A stretch of DNA of 64,000 nucleotides from an uncultured Bacillota bacterium (GTDB lineage Bacteria; Bacillota_I; Bacilli_A; RFN20; CAG-826), in the NCBI GenBank assembly GCA_949287245.1, contig CASEFL010000006.1, positions 1 to 64,000 on the forward strand, given 5' to 3'. Positions 33,619 to 41,247 of the stretch are shown here, piece after piece. Both the position numbers and the translations under genes were made by a program. Each line of letters starts with the position of its first letter. Position 1 is the first letter of the stretch. Under the pieces are notes generated by a model that worked only from the letters and a program-made list of their open reading frames with translations, did no database searches and was not told the origin of the DNA.

Positions 33619-34299
33619 TTATGACTTATTTTCTTTTTCCTCATCAATAGGAGTAGAAGAAACATCAATGACTTCTACCCCTGGTCCTTCTAAACGGGAA
33701 GATAAATCTTCTCCCTCGAGAGGATTATCAGGAACATCATCAAAAGGTTCTTTCTTTATGGGCATATTTTCATCATATACATCATATGGTTCTCCTTCTC
33801 TTTCTTTATTAAAAAAGGAAGAAAAGGCTTTTTTTCGTGCTTTTTTAAGATAAAGCTCTACCCCTTTTGCCACAAGAAAACCCGCATCAACAAAAAGAGA
33901 AGTCCAAGATACGGTGTAACATAAAGCACCCGCCCAAATATAGGTATCATTCTTTAATAAGGTATTTAACTCTTGAATCGTGCACAAATAAAAAATTGCA
34001 GCAAGAAGCAAAAAGAAATGAATAAGAGGGGATAAAAAGGAAGCGCTTTTCGCAAGAGGAGGATAGTTTTCTTCCTGAAGAAAAAAAGGAATGAGAAGAA
34101 GGAATAAGGCGAAAAGGAAAGCAAGAAAAGAAAAAAGAAAACCCGTTAAGCTTAGAGCATAAGGAAAAGAAGAAAGCACCATTTGGGAAAGCAAAATTGA
34201 TCCAATGATGCTGCTTAATAAGACCCATGCACAAAGCACCCCTCTTGTATATAAGCGAACGCGCCGCTCTACGCTATTTTTCCATAACTCTTTATCCAT
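33619..34299 (-). CDS. four-helix membrane protein with an acidic tail
   Basis: 226 aa. Membrane segments at about 18-42, 48-72, 85-107 and 120-145, then a basic stretch (LKKARKKAFSSFFNKE) and an acidic cytoplasmic tail rich in Asp-Pro-Glu (DVPDNPLEGEDLSSRLEG). I do not recognise the family. It lies 29 bp after the TIR gene on the same strand but has its own -10 box seven bases before the ATG, so it may be expressed with or independently of the ESCRT-like operon. Confidence 0.65.
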   Translation of the reverse strand: MDKELWKNSVERRVRLYTRGVLCAWVLLSSIIGSILLSQMVLSSFPYALSLTGFLFSFLAFLFALFLLLIPFFLQEENYPPLAKSASFLSPLIHFFLLLAAIFYLCTIQELNTLLKNDTYIWAGALCYTVSWTSLFVDAGFLVAKGVELYLKKARKKAFSSFFNKEREGEPYDVYDENMPIKKEPFDDVPDNPLEGEDLSSRLEGPGVEVIDVSSTPIDEEKENKS

Positions 34300-34328: not shown

Positions 34329-37300
34329 CTAGAGAAGGAAAAGATAAATATTTGGGAAGTAAAAAAGAATATAGAAAGCGATAAAGGAAACAAAAAAGAG
34401 GAAGGAAAGAAGGAAGGAAACTCCTTTCAACACTCCAGAAAAGCTCACTTCATATACATTGGTTGAGAATTTATACGCTTTTTGATAAGGAACAATCGCA
34501 AAAACAATCACATGAATAAAAGTTAAAACAAAAAGCATAAAATGCGGTAAAAAGGGCGCCATACCAAGCAAAAGTTCGCCTGGATTAAAGGCATAATACG
34601 TAAAAGAGGAGAAAAGCCATAAAAAGCCAAGAAGAATGGATTGATATACACTTTTCCATAAGCGACGTTTTTGATAACCAGATACCCAAATACGAATAAG
34701 ATTCACGACAATGAGAAGCCCAAAGATAGAGGGTCCTGCGATATGGATGATTTTTGTATCGCCCCCAATAAACATGAATCCTAAGAGAAAAAGACTTAGA
34801 AGTAAGCTTTCAATATAGTAAGGAAGAATGCCTTTAAAAAAGGCTTTTAAAGAGGGATGCTTCCGTTTTCTTTTTTTAGAAGAAGTACCAGAACTACTCT
34901 TTTTAGGAGCTAAGCGATTTTTAATCGCATCATCTCTTTTTGAAGCATCACGATTTCTCTTTCGTTCCTCACGAATGGCTTTTCGTGAATGAGTTTTTGT
35001 TCTCTTTTGCGCAAAAGAAAGGGCAGTTTTTAAAGAATCAAGAGAATAATGCCAAAGGGCATCTACACGACTAAAGGAGTTAATTTTCCCTTCTTTTTTT
35101 GCATTTTTCGAAGAAATGGAGGCGATTTTGCGGAGAATTCGTAATTTTTTGCCTCCTTGCATTTGTAATGTTTCTACTTGGTTATATAAAAGCAAAGCGT
35201 GATTACGATCTCCTGATATTGCACAGGCCTCATCGCTACTTAAATCACCACGATAACGAATAAGCATTTCGTAACAGTTTATTTTTTTATTGGCTAATAA
35301 AAGTAAGCCAGAAATTCTGGCCACTACTTCCCCTTGTAAATAGCCGCGCTCAAGTAAGGCATGTAAAAATACCTTTGCCGAAGCAAATTCTTTTAACGCA
35401 ATCAAACGTTCACAAAAATTCAAAGTCCGTTCTTCTTGAAGAGCAAGACCAACACTTTGATAGTCGTGACTCTCGGGCATAATTTGGTATAAAGCTTCAA
35501 AAAGCGTAATGGCTTTCTTTTTGGTTTTGCCTTTCATTAACCCGTTATAAGAAGCCTCAAAAGCTTGATAAAAAACATTGTCACGTTCCCCATCAACTAA
35601 GGAATAACCCGCTTGAAGCATCTTTTCCATAATAGGAATAAGAGTATAAATATCGTTAAGGTAATTTGGCTTTGTTTCCCCTTTTGCTAGAAGGGAGGAA
35701 AGCCATAAGGCTTCCGGCTCATTTTCAAGGAAAGGAACGTCATTTTCTAAAAAACTGCATTTCCCTTTTAAGATGAAATTTAAGCAGTCTTGAGCCAGAA
35801 AGAAAAACTCTTTATTTTTGGTTTTTTCATATATAAGAACAAAATATCGAGCGGCTTTATTAAAAGTATCAATAATCTCTTTTGCCCCTATTCTTGCAAA
35901 ATGAGGATATAGCAAAGTCAAACTTTCTTTTGCCACAGTAGCCGTAAAAGTAGGATTCTTCTCTTTCTCACATTCATTGAAAAATAAATCGAATAGACGG
36001 TTAGATATTTGTGCATAAAAAGAGGAAGGATATTCTTTAAGAGAAACGTTATTTGGATTCACTCCAGGGATTCCGCTTAAAAAACGATATAAAGAAACCA
36101 TTTCTTTATAACTCATAGAACGCGGAAAACCATATATATTGCTCCCTTCGGTAAGAAAAGCAGTAAGAATAGGGATTAAACGCGTGAAGTAAGGAGAATT
36201 CTTTTGTAAGGCTTGTGCAGGCGTTCTTTTTGCATAAGCACTGGCGAGTAAACTTTGTAAAAAATCTAATGAAGCGTCATTGATTCCGTATAAAAGAAAG
36301 GAACATTCAAAAAGTAAAAAATACGTTTCTTCATCTTTCTTTTCTTCTGGTACATCAATTAAGGCATCAAACGCCCTTTTTAAATAAACTTTTTTCCGCG
36401 AAACCCGTGTTGTTTGAGCGTATAAACAAAGATTTTCTTTTGCACGCATAACCGCGTTTTTATCTGCTTCCTCATGAATAATCGATTTTCGCGAGGCAAA
36501 AGAAGAAGATTCATGTACTTCCACTTGTTTGATATTTAAGGATTGAACCTTATTGGTCATCACTTGATTAAGGTGAAAGGAAGAACGTCCATAAAGAACA
36601 CGCACCTCTTCAATAATTTTCTTTAAGTAGGAATCGTTCTTTTCAGGAATAAAACATTGGATTTTTTGTAAGGGGGAAGGAAGGTCACTAACCGAAAAAC
36701 CTTTATCGAGGACACTATAAAAAAGCAAATTTTCAGAAGCACTCATTCTTTTTAAATAACGATTCCATTCGTTATAAATCCAGCGCCCATCGTCCCCATT
36801 AAACCAGCCCTTATTACCTGAACAAACAAGAAGAAATACTCTTGAAGTGAATAAGGCTTGAAAAATTTGCGGTTCAAAAGGAATACCTTCCTTTATGCAT
36901 TCTGCTTCCTTTGCCGCCCAAAAAACACGAAATCCTTCTTTTTTTAAAGCACGATACAAAGTTTGCGCCATTAAGTAAGAACGATCATCCCCAGACTTAT
37001 AAGAAAGAAAAACATTATAAGGCTCAACATTTTTTAAAAGGCGGGAGGACCAATCGACAAGTTCATCGATTTCTAAGGCTTTCTTTTTATAGTATTTTTG
37101 TTCTTCTTCATTATTTTGAACATAAGAAAGCGCCGATAAGTAATCAGGGGAATCACTAAAAGGACGCGTTTCTAAAGTTGCTAAAGTAGGAGTGTCTAGC
37201 CATTCTTGCGATATTTGATTCCCTTGTTTATGAAAGGTTGCGGCATTCACATGAGAAACGCAATAAGATACTAATGCTCTTTGATAATAGTAATCCGCCA

Positions 37301-37601
37301 AATATCCTTGCAAAAGTTCTTTTTCTTTATCGTTTTTTGCTTTTTCTAGTGCATCTTTCGCGTCTGTAATCGCGGCAGTAAGCACCCGTTCAGCATCGTC
37401 AAAATTATATTCATTCCGCAGTTGAATCGCGGAATTTAAACGAAAATCCCAGTCATTTAAGTTGATATCCGTAATAGCATTCACTTTCCCACAGTAGGAA
37501 CATAAAACAACGCCTTTTTTAATCTCTTTGGCTTCGCTTAAAGATGCCCCACAGAAACGGCAAGTAAATGAATGATTGTTTAAACTATCTTTACCAAACA
37601 T
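34329..37601 (-). CDS. zinc ribbon-TIR-helical-membrane protein, last gene of the ESCRT-like operon
   Basis: About 1,090 aa from MFGKDSLNN; an in-frame start 12 codons upstream overlaps the AAA gene. A zinc ribbon near the N-terminus (CRFCGA...CSYCG) is followed by helices. Then comes a TIR domain at about 195-345 (YNVFLSYKSGDDRSYLMAQT, FRVFWAAKE, FEPQIFQALFTSRVFLLVCS, WIYNEWNRYLKR). A long helical, TPR-like region (about 370-870) follows, then a very basic linker (KKRKRKHPSLK), and five or six membrane helices. TIR domains act as NAD hydrolases or adaptors; which applies here is unknown. It should be membrane-bound with its TIR in the cytosol. Its operon context couples it to Vps4/ESCRT-III-like proteins. 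Confidence 0.82.
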   Translation of the reverse strand: MFGKDSLNNHSFTCRFCGASLSEAKEIKKGVVLCSYCGKVNAITDINLNDWDFRLNSAIQLRNEYNFDDAERVLTAAITDAKDALEKAKNDKEKELLQGYLADYYYQRALVSYCVSHVNAATFHKQGNQISQEWLDTPTLATLETRPFSDSPDYLSALSYVQNNEEEQKYYKKKALEIDELVDWSSRLLKNVEPYNVFLSYKSGDDRSYLMAQTLYRALKKEGFRVFWAAKEAECIKEGIPFEPQIFQALFTSRVFLLVCSGNKGWFNGDDGRWIYNEWNRYLKRMSASENLLFYSVLDKGFSVSDLPSPLQKIQCFIPEKNDSYLKKIIEEVRVLYGRSSFHLNQVMTNKVQSLNIKQVEVHESSSFASRKSIIHEEADKNAVMRAKENLCLYAQTTRVSRKKVYLKRAFDALIDVPEEKKDEETYFLLFECSFLLYGINDASLDFLQSLLASAYAKRTPAQALQKNSPYFTRLIPILTAFLTEGSNIYGFPRSMSYKEMVSLYRFLSGIPGVNPNNVSLKEYPSSFYAQISNRLFDLFFNECEKEKNPTFTATVAKESLTLLYPHFARIGAKEIIDTFNKAARYFVLIYEKTKNKEFFFLAQDCLNFILKGKCSFLENDVPFLENEPEALWLSSLLAKGETKPNYLNDIYTLIPIMEKMLQAGYSLVDGERDNVFYQAFEASYNGLMKGKTKKKAITLFEALYQIMPESHDYQSVGLALQEERTLNFCERLIALKEFASAKVFLHALLERGYLQGEVVARISGLLLLANKKINCYEMLIRYRGDLSSDEACAISGDRNHALLLYNQVETLQMQGGKKLRILRKIASISSKNAKKEGKINSFSRVDALWHYSLDSLKTALSFAQKRTKTHSRKAIREERKRNRDASKRDDAIKNRLAPKKSSSGTSSKKRKRKHPSLKAFFKGILPYYIESLLLSLFLLGFMFIGGDTKIIHIAGPSIFGLLIVVNLIRIWVSGYQKRRLWKSVYQSILLGFLWLFSSFTYYAFNPGELLLGMAPFLPHFMLFVLTFIHVIVFAIVPYQKAYKFSTNVYEVSFSGVLKGVSFLLSFLFFVSFIAFYILFYFPNIYLFLL

Positions 37602-37609
37602 AAGTAAAT

Positions 37610-38815
37610 TTATTTCGTTAAAGAAAAGCCGCCCCAAGCTGCGTAACGTTCTTCACTAGTTTCAGAATTACTCCGTCCAGCCTTGGCAAGAAGCAAAGAA
37701 TCTTGAATATCTTTCATGCGAATGGCACCGCTTTGATGAAGACGAAGCTTACGATAAGCTGCCTCCCTAGCCGCATGATCTAAGGAAGACATGATGTCTC
37801 CTCCCCCAAGGCCTCTTGAAACTTCAACTAATGTATCAATATTAAATTCTTCATCAACACCATTTTTGTTTTTATTTAAGAAGCGCTCAATCATTAACCT
37901 TCGTGCTTGATCATTAGGAAGCCCAACATAAACTTTAACGTCAATTCTTCCTCCACGCAAAATAGCAGGATCTAATGCCCAAGGAATGTTTGTTGCGGCT
38001 AGCAAAAATAAATCAGCTTTACGACCCGAAAAGCCATCTAATTGTTGTAAGAACTCACTCATTAAACGATTATCGTGAGGAGAATTTCCTTCCCTTGCTT
38101 TTAATAAAGCGTCACAATCATCTAAATAAATAACAGCCGCACCATCTTCCTTTGCCGCTTCAAATAAAGAAGCAAGATTTTGTTCTGATTCACCGACCCA
38201 TTTTGAAAGAAGTTCTGAGGGTTGAACTGGATAAAAGCGAGCGTTAATCTCATGCGCTACTGCTTTGGCTAATGTTGTCTTCCCTGTTCCTGGAGGTCCA
38301 TAAAGAAGAAGTCCTTTCCCACCTTTTAATCCATAAGAAGCAAATAGTTCTGGATGGGCTATAGGATCGATAAAATTTTGAAAAATCTCACGTTTGGCTT
38401 CCTCTAACCCAATTACATCATCAAAACTAACATTCGGTTTTTCTGCAGCAAGCCAAACCTTTTTCTTTTCATCATCGCTTGCGTGATGGTTTTCTTCGTA
38501 TGTTGGCGAAGGCATATCCTTTCCTGAAGGCGATTTTTTCACACGCGGCGGTCGCCCCTTCCAAGAAGATATTTGCTTTTCTGCCCAAGACTTTACAAGT
38601 TCTGCCTTATCCACAATGGATTTTGCGTGGGCAAATTGTGCTTTTCCTAAAGAAGAATGTTCTCCCCCATTTAATTTTGCAATTTGTACAAGCTCTTTGG
38701 CGGCTAAAAAATACTGACGAGAGGAATTATAAAAATCTCCTTTTTCCTCTAGTTCTTTCGCTTGTTCTAAGTAACTAGAATAACGAAATTGTAAGGTTTG
38801 AATATCCTCCGCCAT
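37610..38815 (-). CDS. Vps4-like AAA ATPase with N-terminal MIT-like domain
   Basis: 401 aa. Residues 8-80 form a three-helix MIT-like domain (YLEQAKELEEKGDFYNSSRQ, IVDKAELVKSW). After a Pro/Lys linker comes one meiotic-clade AAA module: VSFDDVIGLEEAK, Walker A GPPGTGKT (173-180), pore loop SKWVGES (204-210, Vps4-like), Walker B VIYLDD (228-233) with Asp233 where Vps4/katanin have Glu, sensor-1 ATNIPW, and arginine fingers in LRGGRID. The C-terminus (YAAWGGFSL) resembles the last helix of this clade. Expected to remodel an ESCRT-III-like polymer. It overlaps that gene at TAATG. Confidence 0.88.
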   Translation of the reverse strand: MAEDIQTLQFRYSSYLEQAKELEEKGDFYNSSRQYFLAAKELVQIAKLNGGEHSSLGKAQFAHAKSIVDKAELVKSWAEKQISSWKGRPPRVKKSPSGKDMPSPTYEENHHASDDEKKKVWLAAEKPNVSFDDVIGLEEAKREIFQNFIDPIAHPELFASYGLKGGKGLLLYGPPGTGKTTLAKAVAHEINARFYPVQPSELLSKWVGESEQNLASLFEAAKEDGAAVIYLDDCDALLKAREGNSPHDNRLMSEFLQQLDGFSGRKADLFLLAATNIPWALDPAILRGGRIDVKVYVGLPNDQARRLMIERFLNKNKNGVDEEFNIDTLVEVSRGLGGGDIMSSLDHAAREAAYRKLRLHQSGAIRMKDIQDSLLLAKAGRSNSETSEERYAAWGGFSLTK

Positions 38816-39435
38816 TACTTTTCTTCTCCTGAAGCAGATTTAGTTTGTATCTCTCCGGCAATACCCTTTTCAATGCGTCTCATCAAAGCGTCCATTTCAT
38901 CTTCTTTTCCGCTAAGAGCAACCTTTTCTCCTTCTCCTAATAACGAAACAATATCCTCATCTTTAATAGAGGAAATCGAAGAACTTTGCATTTCAAAAGC
39001 ATCTTGGGAACGCGCTAAGAAATCTCCAATTCTTTCTGTCTGTTTCTCATTTTCAGCAATTGCCACATCAAAGTCTTTCACCGCAGCAGCAAATTCTTTA
39101 TCACTAGTAAGTTTTGACATATCGCGGCTTATTCCCCGCATTGTTCCTAAAAATTCACGTGCCGTGGTTAATGTTTGCCAATTTTGAAACATGATTTCAA
39201 CATTTAATTTATAAGAACGAATTCTTGTTTGTTGAGCAATCGCGCTTTTTAAACCAGCAAGGGCTAAAGCAAGTTGATCTTTAATCCCAAAACGCATCGC
39301 CTCTTTCGCTTTTTCAATATAAGCAAGACGTGACTTTTCCATGCTTTCAATCGCCTTATCCATTTCGCGAATAGAACGGCGCACAGAAGAACGAAGTTCC
39401 ATCTCTTTTTGTGTACGACTTTTAAATAAACCCAT
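38815..39435 (-). CDS. ESCRT-III (Snf7/Vps2)-like filament protein
   Basis: 206 aa, almost wholly helical. The N-terminal half is basic (RSSVRRSIREMDKAIESMEK, IAQQTRIRSYKLNVEIMFQ), the middle has LGTMRGISRDMSKL comparable to the MxxxxKxM helix of Vps2/CHMP proteins, and the C-terminal third is acidic. The tail MDALMRRIEKGI (about 181-192) resembles the MIM1 motif (DxLxxRLxxLR) by which ESCRT-III binds Vps4 MIT domains. It lies directly upstream of, and overlaps, the MIT-AAA gene. PspA/Vipp1, the familiar bacterial members of the superfamily, lack such a tail. The role in membrane scission or repair is inference. Confidence 0.75.
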   Translation of the reverse strand: MGLFKSRTQKEMELRSSVRRSIREMDKAIESMEKSRLAYIEKAKEAMRFGIKDQLALALAGLKSAIAQQTRIRSYKLNVEIMFQNWQTLTTAREFLGTMRGISRDMSKLTSDKEFAAAVKDFDVAIAENEKQTERIGDFLARSQDAFEMQSSSISSIKDEDIVSLLGEGEKVALSGKEDEMDALMRRIEKGIAGEIQTKSASGEEK

Positions 39436-39449
39436 AAGAAAATCCTTTC

Positions 39450-40055
39450 TTAGTTTTCCTCTCCTTCTTTCGAAGAAGTTTCATTATAAACTGGCATTTC
39501 TTCAATGGACTGATTCTCCCATTGACTCAAAATATTATTTTCCTCCTCCCCAGGCTGATAATCAGGATTGCTTTGCAAAGTAGCGTTCATATTTGCCATG
39601 GCATCCATGCCTGCACGGATTGGTTGGGATAAACCGCGGTCTTCAACGAGAATTTCGTTCATTAACTCTTCGATATTCTCAGGATTTTTAATCCAATCGC
39701 CAAGTTTTCCTTTAATGCCTCTTACCACCGTTTTCGATTCAATGGCTCCCGCAAGTTCATCAAAAAAACTTTCTAGGCTTTGATAACGGATAACATAGTT
39801 TTGGTAACGCTTTAAGTCGCGTTGCTTTTGCGCCACTTGAGAGGCTAATATTTTCCGAAATTCAGGACGTTTTTCATTGATCCCTTGCTTATTTAATTTC
39901 GTAATTTCTTCATCGATAGCTAAACTTTTTTCCAAAAATTCTTGGACTTTAGAAGATACTTCTTCTTTGGCCTCTTTCACCTCTTGTACATCAGGAATTT
40001 TTCGGGGAGAGAAAAATCTTTTGATTCTTGTCCAAACACTTTCTTTTTCTTTCAT
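39450..40055 (-). CDS. second helical, possibly ESCRT-III-like, protein
   Basis: 201 aa. A basic, amphipathic N-terminus (SVWTRIKRFFSPRK) could sit on membranes. Long charged helices follow (EVSSKVQEFLEKSLAIDEEI, VAQKQRDLKRYQNYVIRYQS, FFDELAGAIES), then DWIKNPENIEELMNEILVED and a disordered acidic tail. The layout of basic helical front, acidic end and similar length matches the next gene and ESCRT-III subunits, but sequence similarity is weak. SD AAGGAG is strong. It is probably a partner subunit of the filament. Confidence 0.55.
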   Translation of the reverse strand: MKEKESVWTRIKRFFSPRKIPDVQEVKEAKEEVSSKVQEFLEKSLAIDEEITKLNKQGINEKRPEFRKILASQVAQKQRDLKRYQNYVIRYQSLESFFDELAGAIESKTVVRGIKGKLGDWIKNPENIEELMNEILVEDRGLSQPIRAGMDAMANMNATLQSNPDYQPGEEENNILSQWENQSIEEMPVYNETSSKEGEEN

Positions 40056-40058
40056 AGG

Positions 40059-40373
40059 TCACTCCTTGATTTTTCTTAAAGCGAGAAGGCGCTCTACTTG
40101 ATGTAAAGAGTACAGAAGTAAAGCTTCGCTTTGTCTATTATGATAATTTTCTCCCTCTTTTAACAATGTTAAAATTTTTAAATCGGCTTTTAAAATTTCT
40201 TCTGCATCCGAAGGAAAAAAAGAACATAAAGTTTCTTTAAGAGATAATGAAAGAGTTTTACTTTCTTCGTTAAGTGGCGAAGAAATGAAATAATCTAAAA
40301 AATGAATGGACTTTTGCAGGGTTTTTCTATCTTCATCCAATCTTTCTTTCCGTTTATTCCGTAATAAGCCCAT
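40059..40373 (-). CDS. small helical protein of the ESCRT-like operon
   Basis: 104 aa, charged and helical (LRNKRKERLDEDRKTLQKSI, EALLLYSLHQVERLLALR). No recognised domain and no membrane segment. It starts inside the end of the SPFH-like gene and is followed four bases later by the second helical protein gene, so it is surely co-translated. It may be an adaptor or assembly factor. Confidence 0.6.
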   Translation of the reverse strand: MGLLRNKRKERLDEDRKTLQKSIHFLDYFISSPLNEESKTLSLSLKETLCSFFPSDAEEILKADLKILTLLKEGENYHNRQSEALLLYSLHQVERLLALRKIKE

Positions 40374-41247
40374 TCTTCCTTCCTTCCCTAATTTCCTCTT
40401 CGTTTGTATTTAAACGTTGTTCCTTTTCATTATTTTGTTCTTCAAAAACTATTTTTTCTCCACAAGTTATGCAATATTTCATGTTTTTATCAACAATCCT
40501 ATGGCAAGAAGGACAACGCGAAATTGCCTTCCCACATGCTGGACAAAAAGAAACATCTTTCCCAATAAGTGAACCGCATTCAGGACAATAACTACCTTCT
40601 TTTCTTACTTGTTCTAAGGCCGTCTTCGATTCTTCGTCTAAATTTAAAGAAAGAAGAGAAAAAGTAGGAATTTCAATTCCATATTTTTCATTAAATAAAC
40701 GTGTTGCTTCTTTTCTTAAGTTTTCTCCTAAGAAAACTAAAGCTTTTTCTGGGGCTAATAAATCGATATTTTCTTTCCGAATTGTTTCTTCTATCATCGC
40801 AAGTAAATGAGCAAGGAAAAATTGCTGCAGACGATTTTGTAAGTCTTCTGAGGTAAAAGAAGCATTTTCCCCTACAAGCTCTTGGAAAAATTTCTTTGGA
40901 TTGCTTACTCTTGCTTCAAAAACTCCGTGAGCGCCAACGGTTAATAAAATATGATCTTGATAAAAATGAAGGCGTTCAGAAGTTCCCCATTTAATGGATA
41001 AACGATGGGAGGTATTTACCAAAACAACATCGACATTTTCTTTTTTTGAGAAAAAATGCGCGTCAGGGAAAATACGCATTCTCCCTCCTCCACTAAGAGG
41101 ATTTTGAGCTACTCCGTTTCGAATAAAAAAGGCAAACCATGTGGAAGGAAGAATCACTTCCGCGTTATAGGGATAATTTGATAAGCAGAAGCGTTCAAAT
41201 AAAGCATCCTCTTTTCCTTGAAGAACGACTAACTTATCTTTTTTCAT
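40354..41247 (-). CDS. SPFH-like protein with two C-terminal zinc ribbons
   Basis: 297 aa. Residues about 5-210 resemble bacterial SPFH/band-7-like proteins of the YdjP/virion-core-like group (EVILPSTWFAFFIRNGVAQN, SIKWGTSERLHFYQ, FLAHLLAMIEETIRKENIDL, EATRLFNEKYGIEIPTFSLL). Residues 221-262 carry eight Cys in four CxxC pairs, that is, two zinc ribbons. An acidic tail follows. It heads the operon and could act as the membrane- or protein-recognition component that recruits the filament. It has no signal peptide. A TATAAT sits seven bases before the ATG, with no SD. Confidence 0.75.
   Translation of the reverse strand: MKKDKLVVLQGKEDALFERFCLSNYPYNAEVILPSTWFAFFIRNGVAQNPLSGGGRMRIFPDAHFFSKKENVDVVLVNTSHRLSIKWGTSERLHFYQDHILLTVGAHGVFEARVSNPKKFFQELVGENASFTSEDLQNRLQQFFLAHLLAMIEETIRKENIDLLAPEKALVFLGENLRKEATRLFNEKYGIEIPTFSLLSLNLDEESKTALEQVRKEGSYCPECGSLIGKDVSFCPACGKAISRCPSCHRIVDKNMKYCITCGEKIVFEEQNNEKEQRLNTNEEEIREGRKNGLITE

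Follow-up and report, generated by a model that had tools for sequence, protein, structure and literature searches.

The pairing of an ESCRT-III-type filament protein with a Vps4-type motor was said in a 2024 survey not to occur in bacteria. Bacterial Vps4-like ATPases have been described with a TPR/6TM protein and with snf7 displaced, and some bacteria have Snf7/PspA proteins together with AAA ATPases (Ravi et al. 2024; PMC11237479). In Bacillus subtilis, PspA is recruited by YdjI, a precedent for an SPFH-type adaptor (PMC8581546). Here, a six-gene operon was analyzed in a 64,000-nucleotide stretch of DNA (the window) from contig CASEFL010000006.1 of an uncultured Bacillota bacterium (assembly GCA_949287245.1). 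The host genome is tiny (1.12 Mb in 13 contigs), and the relatives found to have the genes are listed as metagenome-assembled genomes of uncultured Bacilli/Firmicutes. In order, the operon encodes an SPFH-zinc ribbon protein, two helical proteins of 104 and 201 amino acids (aa), a 206-aa ESCRT-III-like subunit, a Vps4/CdvC-like ATPase, and a zinc ribbon-TIR-membrane protein. We favor, with some reservation, the reading that its products make up a bacterial membrane machine of the ESCRT-III/Vps4 type, in which an SPFH protein is the adaptor and a TIR protein the effector. This gene set was not described in the literature searched, which was mostly without subscription papers and preprints.

A candidate filament subunit and its Vps4/CdvC-like ATPase

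The 206-aa protein had been called ESCRT-III-like by the first-pass annotation, made from the sequence alone, and the call was sustained: the Pfam signal was weak, and it was backed by profile-profile comparison and by the predicted helix layout. Because the Pfam Snf7 match was subthreshold (a PF03357 search of the protein's own genome found nothing), a profile of 18 members of the subunit family was compared by hhalign with six ESCRT-III sequences that had been chosen beforehand, their letters taken from PDB entries. The alignment covered 150 columns spanning helices 1 to 5, with a probability of 88.6 and an E value of 2.6e-6. The score of 46.6 lay about 13 standard deviations above two sets of seven-column block shuffles (means, 13.6-13.9; maximum, 21.5), the alignment being colinear through helix 5; the reversed profile scored 12.9, and the score was 42.6 with the window's genus dropped. 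In the same comparison, PspA reached 22.7 against ESCRT-III, within its own shuffled range, and 16.2 against the subunit profile, a chance-level value by which a PspA/Vipp1 identity for the 206-aa protein was ruled out.

An AlphaFold2 (AF2) model of the 206-aa protein, with a mean predicted local distance difference test score (pLDDT) of 74 and values below 50 in the region of helix 5, placed helices at residues 7-49, 52-110, 113-150, 159-175, and 178-204. Their order and lengths are as in ESCRT-III, with a long alpha1-alpha2/3 hairpin followed by alpha4 and alpha5. The best Foldseek match of this model was S. islandicus CdvB (probability, 0.98; E value, 0.08), with CdvB2, Loki CHMP4-7, and VIPP1 ranking lower among BAR and SMC entries. 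The N terminus (MGLFKS) resembles that of CHMP3 (MGLFGK). At the C terminus, the pattern phi-[DEQ]-x-x-phi-x-x-phi, which was formulated after inspection of the sequences, occurred within the final 32 residues of all 18 family members, and in 14 of 14 nonredundant members versus 1.7 expected (maximum of 6 in 2000 shuffles). Examples such as IDKELEEL, IEKKLNQL, and MDALMRRI have the i, i+4, i+7 spacing of the CHMP MIM1 motif (MQSRLATL in CHMP3, LSQRLARL in CHMP1B), the MIM1 Arg not being kept, and the tail is therefore described here as MIM1-like, a putative MIT-interacting motif. Support for the 206-aa protein as an ESCRT-III homologue, as drawn from these profiles and models, is good, not conclusive. 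Locus L037 of genome G178 is the one in which a fusion of the subunit to FtsK replaces the MIT-ATPase; there, the motif lies in helix 5 and the terminal copy is absent. The ESCRT-III-like gene of this locus comes first, the next gene joins an ESCRT-III-like domain to an FtsK/SpoIIIE ATPase, and a zinc ribbon-TIR-leucine-rich repeat (LRR) gene comes after (L037:7601-10042), with no MIT-AAA gene near.

The adjoining ATPase has an MIT domain at residues 1-86 and an AAA domain at 128-397, and its earlier description as MIT-bearing and Vps4-type was borne out. The AAA domain matched Pfam at 7.5e-38. Pfam MIT had no match in the window ATPase itself and was the commonest match among its relatives (5 of 14; best, 9.8e-5). 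Modeled by AF2 with 14 sequences, the N terminus formed a three-helix bundle (residues 2-86; pLDDT, 82.5), whose best seven Foldseek matches in the PDB were all MIT domains (probability, 1.00): SKD1, VPS4A alone and in complex, VPS4B, a mouse MIT domain, and archaeal Vps4. The match to VPS4A had a TMt of 0.80 and a root mean square deviation of 1.9; the E values of 0.05-0.2 are weak, which is usual for small helical domains, and no other fold outranked MIT. For the relatives L064 and L009, the best NCBIfam model was archaeal CdvC, matched end to end with MIT included (219 bits for L064, over 1-368 of 370; 217 bits for L009); for the window ATPase, the CDC48 and PAN models scored slightly above CdvC. 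The single classical AAA domain carries a pore loop, SKWVGES at 204-210, comparable to SKWMGES in yeast Vps4. As judged from profiles, models, and motifs, the window ATPase is Vps4/CdvC-like.

In an unrooted tree with few references, 15 ATPases of loci with the subunit formed one clade (98/95) that also took in one membrane-type ATPase of G697, and a 96/85 branch grouped these bacterial ATPases with Vps4, CdvC, and spastin apart from Cdc48 and FtsH. The first-pass label of a meiotic-clade AAA is thus best softened, the bacterial ATPases being placed by this tree as their own clade beside Vps4/CdvC/spastin, not inside it. That they are the sister group of Vps4 is the preferred interpretation and falls short of proof, because the tree is unrooted and its references are few; with the same few references, the separate clade led us to reject a recent transfer from archaea. 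Other ATPases of this kind were also seen. Those at L071:6374-8170 and L130:541-2328 (595-598 aa) belong to this AAA type and have a lipoprotein- or transmembrane (TM)-like signal at the N terminus, with no ESCRT-III-like gene near, and that of L071 (L055) was placed within the bacterial clade. In G205, a gene for a 228-aa helical protein precedes a second AAA ATPase of the bacterial clade (L035:5917-7155), one on a long branch, and the locus may represent a two-motor version.

Of the family's 146 genomes, 6 had the subunit, as did 14 of 279 genomes of the order and approximately 2-3% of those in the class and phylum samples once a GrpE match was removed; a second phylum sample around G697, of 398 genomes, gave one true case. 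GrpE proteins in G413, G816, and G1020, which the subunit scan had matched, were rejected since they lie beside dnaK/dnaJ, and G896, a broken fragment, was excluded from the counts. No subunit was found in plasmid and phage records by tblastn, nor were its patterns found in IMG/VR. Across the 146 family genomes, those with an MIT-ATPase match at E<1e-190 were precisely the six that bear the subunit (Fisher p 8e-11), and the two genes adjoined, or lay one gene apart, in 18 of 19 loci examined, where the usual order was SPFH, small helical, helical, subunit, ATPase. A lack of conservation as a unit had been named beforehand as what would refute the first-pass reading; the outcome favored that reading, the gene set being found to recur, with its order kept, in other genera and families. 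By these comparisons, the association within the operon exceeds chance.

A predicted SPFH hub with exchangeable outputs

Pfam matches and TM segments supported the first-pass proposal that the conserved operon also joins an SPFH/zinc ribbon protein to a zinc ribbon-TIR-membrane protein. The first of these matched Band_7_1 (PF13421) at 6.6e-16 and zinc ribbons at 5.5e-10, had no TM segment by hydropathy, and is encoded at the head of the operon in relatives too; it is predicted to be a YdjI-like membrane/adaptor hub. DrmA of PADLOC matched it weakly (E value, 0.028). The 104-aa protein had no Pfam match. Its counterpart is fused to the product of the following gene in loci of the G047, G043, G393, and G465 types (317 aa in L007, 324-325 aa in L038/L039, 348 aa in L066, and 318 aa in L068), which suggests that the two helical proteins act together. 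The 201-aa protein, whose position is conserved in relatives, had a weak Pfam match to Mod_r (3.6e-3), and its profile scored 24.6 against ESCRT-III, a weak value (shuffled maximum, 18.1), and 17.8 against the subunit; it may be another, divergent subunit of an ESCRT-III-like or ESCRT-I-like kind.

In the TIR protein, an N-terminal zinc ribbon precedes the TIR domain at 209-329 (TIR_2, 1e-8; TIR matches in 6 of 6 aligned relatives), a helical/TPR-like middle, and 4-5 C-terminal TM segments at 941-1091 by hydropathy. E290, the Glu of a W-x-x-N-E-W motif, is invariant across the aligned TIRs, and the protein, with this catalytic-type Glu kept, is a putative NADase-type effector. Outputs differ among loci: zinc ribbon-TIR proteins with TM segments are encoded in the window, G047, G096, G263, G081, G133, G018, and G159, and with LRR repeats in G189, G697, G173, and G178; zinc ribbon-trypsin proteins in G189, G043, and G465; RuvB-HEPN in G043, with the same gene order in G064; and VWA, PP2C, and kinase genes in G306, with the same order in G284. 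From gene content, the TIR gene is thus an exchangeable output. Both the SPFH protein and the effectors carry zinc ribbons, which may therefore be a docking part. In G018 and G159, BrxL adjoins the TIR gene, and a BrxL (BREX Lon-like) gene lies between the MIT-ATPase and TIR genes at L011:5528-6952 and L033:5352-6791. At L064:2240-12097 and in L065, the core set lies among three VWA genes as well as PP2C and Ser/Thr kinase genes, an arrangement that recalls TerY-P-type systems and archaeal ESCRT loci with kinase and phosphatase.

All six minus-strand open reading frames (ORFs) of the operon, within 34329-41247, were present as positioned (Table 1), in the order given by the first-pass annotation and with gaps of at most 14 bp, in keeping with its description of genes overlapping or about 15 bp apart. 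The SPFH and 104-aa genes overlap by 20 bp, gaps of 3 bp and 14 bp separate the 104-aa, 201-aa, and 206-aa genes, and the 206-aa and ATPase genes overlap in a shared TAATG. The TIR gene overlaps the ATPase gene by 28 bp if it starts at TTG 37637, or follows it after 8 bp if it starts at ATG 37601; the latter is the likelier real start, the TTG falling within the ATPase gene. The spacing is consistent with a single transcript. In the genus, the operon lies between ArsP-type permease/Mrp and membrane gene/amidohydrolase/uridine kinase; because four genomes of the genus share these flanks, archaeal or eukaryotic contamination was ruled out. G104 has the same flanks and no operon. In G111, the core is absent at the same site, which keeps just an 856-aa TIR gene relic lacking both a Pfam TIR match and TM segments, a single case that fits a TIR gene losing its use without the core. 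A 226-aa membrane protein gene downstream of the operon (33619-34299) also occurs at this G111 site, where the relic is all that is left of the operon, and its product is probably outside the system.

Table 1. Genes of the operon in the window, with the evidence for each assignment
Feature	Coordinates	Strand	Evidence
SPFH (Band_7_1) protein with C-terminal zinc ribbons, 297 aa	40354..41247	-	Pfam PF13421 and zinc ribbon matches
104-aa helical protein	40059..40373	-	ORF; no Pfam match
201-aa helical protein	39450..40055	-	Conserved position; weak profile matches
206-aa ESCRT-III-like filament subunit, C-terminal MIM1-like motif MDALMRRI	38815..39435	-	hhalign, AF2, motif
401-aa Vps4/CdvC-like ATPase	37610..38815	-	AAA profile, MIT model, CdvC model, tree, motifs
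Zinc ribbon-TIR-helical/TPR-like-TM protein, up to 1102 aa, putative effector	34329..37637	-	TIR_2, TM hydropathy

A proposed membrane-guarding cycle and its alternatives

The system probably senses envelope damage or phage. In the cycle that we propose, the SPFH-zinc ribbon protein would gather on a stressed or perforated inner membrane and recruit the 206-aa subunit, by analogy with YdjI and PspA, with the 104-aa and 201-aa proteins serving as a nucleator or as partners in recruitment. The filament would then extend and the membrane be sealed or pinched, after which an ATPase hexamer, holding the C-terminal motif via its MIT domains, would extract subunits past the SKW pore loop and so recycle the polymer. 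The membrane-anchored zinc ribbon-TIR protein would be kept at the SPFH scaffold, perhaps via zinc ribbons; if damage persisted and the assembly were not cleared, the clustered TIR domains would become active, probably by NAD+ cleavage, and the cell would be halted. The parts differ in standing. The identity of the core is probable and, granted that identity, recycling of the filament by the ATPase is likely; the recruitment and recycling steps draw on family knowledge together with the parts identified here. A damage-gated TIR effector is a plausible idea about which we are more doubtful than confident, and the firing step is a guess, made likelier because effectors vary, the distribution is patchy, and the TIR Glu is invariant.

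Several observations weigh against this reading. Pfam Snf7 (PF03357) gave the 206-aa protein 16.2 bits against a cut-off of 27.3, yet was among its best families, and matched only 3 of 18 family members; the Foldseek E values were nonsignificant, BAR and SMC coiled coils following close behind CdvB. GrpE scored 39.5 against the subunit profile, and only 15.5 against ESCRT-III, so helical look-alikes can mislead the subunit profile. The partnership of subunit and ATPase rests on co-occurrence and adjacency, their binding being putative. Walker B (residues 229-235) of the window ATPase reads YLDDCD, and its relatives in the genus have MDDCE; because the Glu is replaced by Asp in the window genus (LDD in place of IDE) and retained in other families, ATP hydrolysis by the window-genus ATPase may be slow, or the ATPase specialized. 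The G018 and G081 versions have the Glu. Among PADLOC 2023 defense families, none beyond generic AAA (such as IetA and TRIP13) matched the operon proteins. G037 and G109 hold an SPFH gene adjoining or near a zinc ribbon-TIR gene with neither filament nor ATPase gene, and no TIR gene occurred in the stretches read for G393, G465, G284, and G306, where the ESCRT core is present. The first-pass proposal that a remodelling cycle controls the TIR effector is conjectural; from the variety of outputs and the SPFH-TIR pairs without a core, SPFH is therefore, by gene content, the common hub, and filament core and effector are separable modules.

The alternative that survives best, which we nonetheless hold unlikely, is housekeeping envelope repair, in which SPFH/ESCRT-III/Vps4 replaces PspA-YdjI in a PspA-less lineage and the TIR protein is a scaffold that causes no death. 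PspA was rare in the class sample and was not found in G000 (no PF04012, PspA_IM30, match), the YdjI-PspA pair offers a parallel, within the genus, the operon keeps to one chromosomal position flanked by conserved housekeeping genes, and TIR-less loci retain the SPFH, subunit, and ATPase genes. A housekeeping role does not predict so patchy a distribution, with the operon in six family genomes and absent in most of the genus; moreover, the outputs are conflict-type domains (TIR, HEPN, trypsin, BrxL), and the TIRs keep a catalytic-type Glu. It is still less probable that the 206-aa protein is an unrelated helical coiled-coil partner of an MIT-AAA unfoldase, its likeness to ESCRT-III arising from coiled-coil composition: the subthreshold Pfam score, the Foldseek values, and the GrpE cross-match would suit this, whereas the prechosen ESCRT-III reference stood far above the block shuffles and colinear to helix 5, GrpE failed against that reference, and a MIM1-spaced C terminus beside an MIT ATPase is what ESCRT-III requires. 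Equally improbable is regulated protein sorting as proposed for archaeal ESCRT loci, in which SPFH/zinc ribbon proteins collect cargo, the filament buds vesicles, and effector-like proteins are cargo or regulators. In its favor, an SPFH-coiled coil-zinc ribbon protein accompanies Vps4 in archaeal Meth_adaptin loci, and main-clade loci have Ser/Thr kinase and phosphatase (PMC10936438), comparable to the kinase/PP2C/VWA genes of L064/L065; against it, Pfam found neither adaptin, wH, or GOLD domains nor any ubiquitin-type cargo domain in the window operon.

Relation to described systems

The bacterial membrane machine favored here shares with archaeal and eukaryotic ESCRT-III and Vps4 (CdvB/CdvC; Snf7/Vps24/CHMP with VPS4) an ESCRT-III-like gene directly upstream of an MIT-AAA gene, a MIM1-spaced tail, and an SKW pore loop. 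It differs in its occurrence in Bacilli, in a subunit below the Snf7 cut-off, in an ATPase clade beside Vps4/CdvC, and in its attached TIR or other effector genes, and no CdvA, ESCRT-I, or ESCRT-II wH partner was found. The Meth_adaptin loci of methanogens (PMC10936438) resemble it in their Vps4-type ATPase and SPFH-coiled coil-zinc ribbon protein; in the bacterial operon, no adaptin appendage, GOLD, or ProX genes were found, and a TIR effector is present instead. The B. subtilis PspA-YdjI-YdjG/H complex (PMC8581546) likewise joins an SPFH-type adaptor to an ESCRT-III superfamily protein, with membrane proteins in the complex, whereas the subunit described here does not match PspA and has a dedicated MIT-AAA. 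In the bacterial Vps4-like transfers (PMC11237479), a Vps4-like ATPase is likewise near a TPR-like/membrane protein, with snf7 displaced, whereas here an ESCRT-III-like gene lies beside the ATPase. Type III Thoeris/ThsB proteins share a TIR with a Glu motif (ThcB4 match, 2.9e-5, far under the cut-off); no ThsA-type partner was seen here, and the TIR is fused to a zinc ribbon, helical repeats, and TM or LRR segments. The IetA profile of the anti-phage system IetAS matched the AAA domain at 131 bits, a score exceeded by the CdvC, PAN, and CDC48 models, and no IetS protease was seen.

A conserved bacterial MIT/MIM-like pair would extend the ESCRT-III/Vps4 machine to a third domain and offer a compact model for reconstitution; it would also inform the question of whether the partnership with Vps4 predates archaea or was passed between domains. 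A broader and rather unlikely proposal is that a deep bacterial ESCRT-III/Vps4 branch, sister to the archaeal-eukaryotic one, guards the inner membrane, with SPFH and filament sensing and sealing lesions and with exchangeable zinc ribbon effectors (TIR, trypsin, and others) killing or arresting the cell if the ATPase cannot clear the filament. Through its TIR and other effector genes, such a bacterial pair would also link the remodelling of membranes with signalling for cell death in bacteria. This agrees with a report that PspA is conjugated to a CBASS cyclase expressed in B. subtilis and is proposed to keep that cyclase inactive (PMC11153139).

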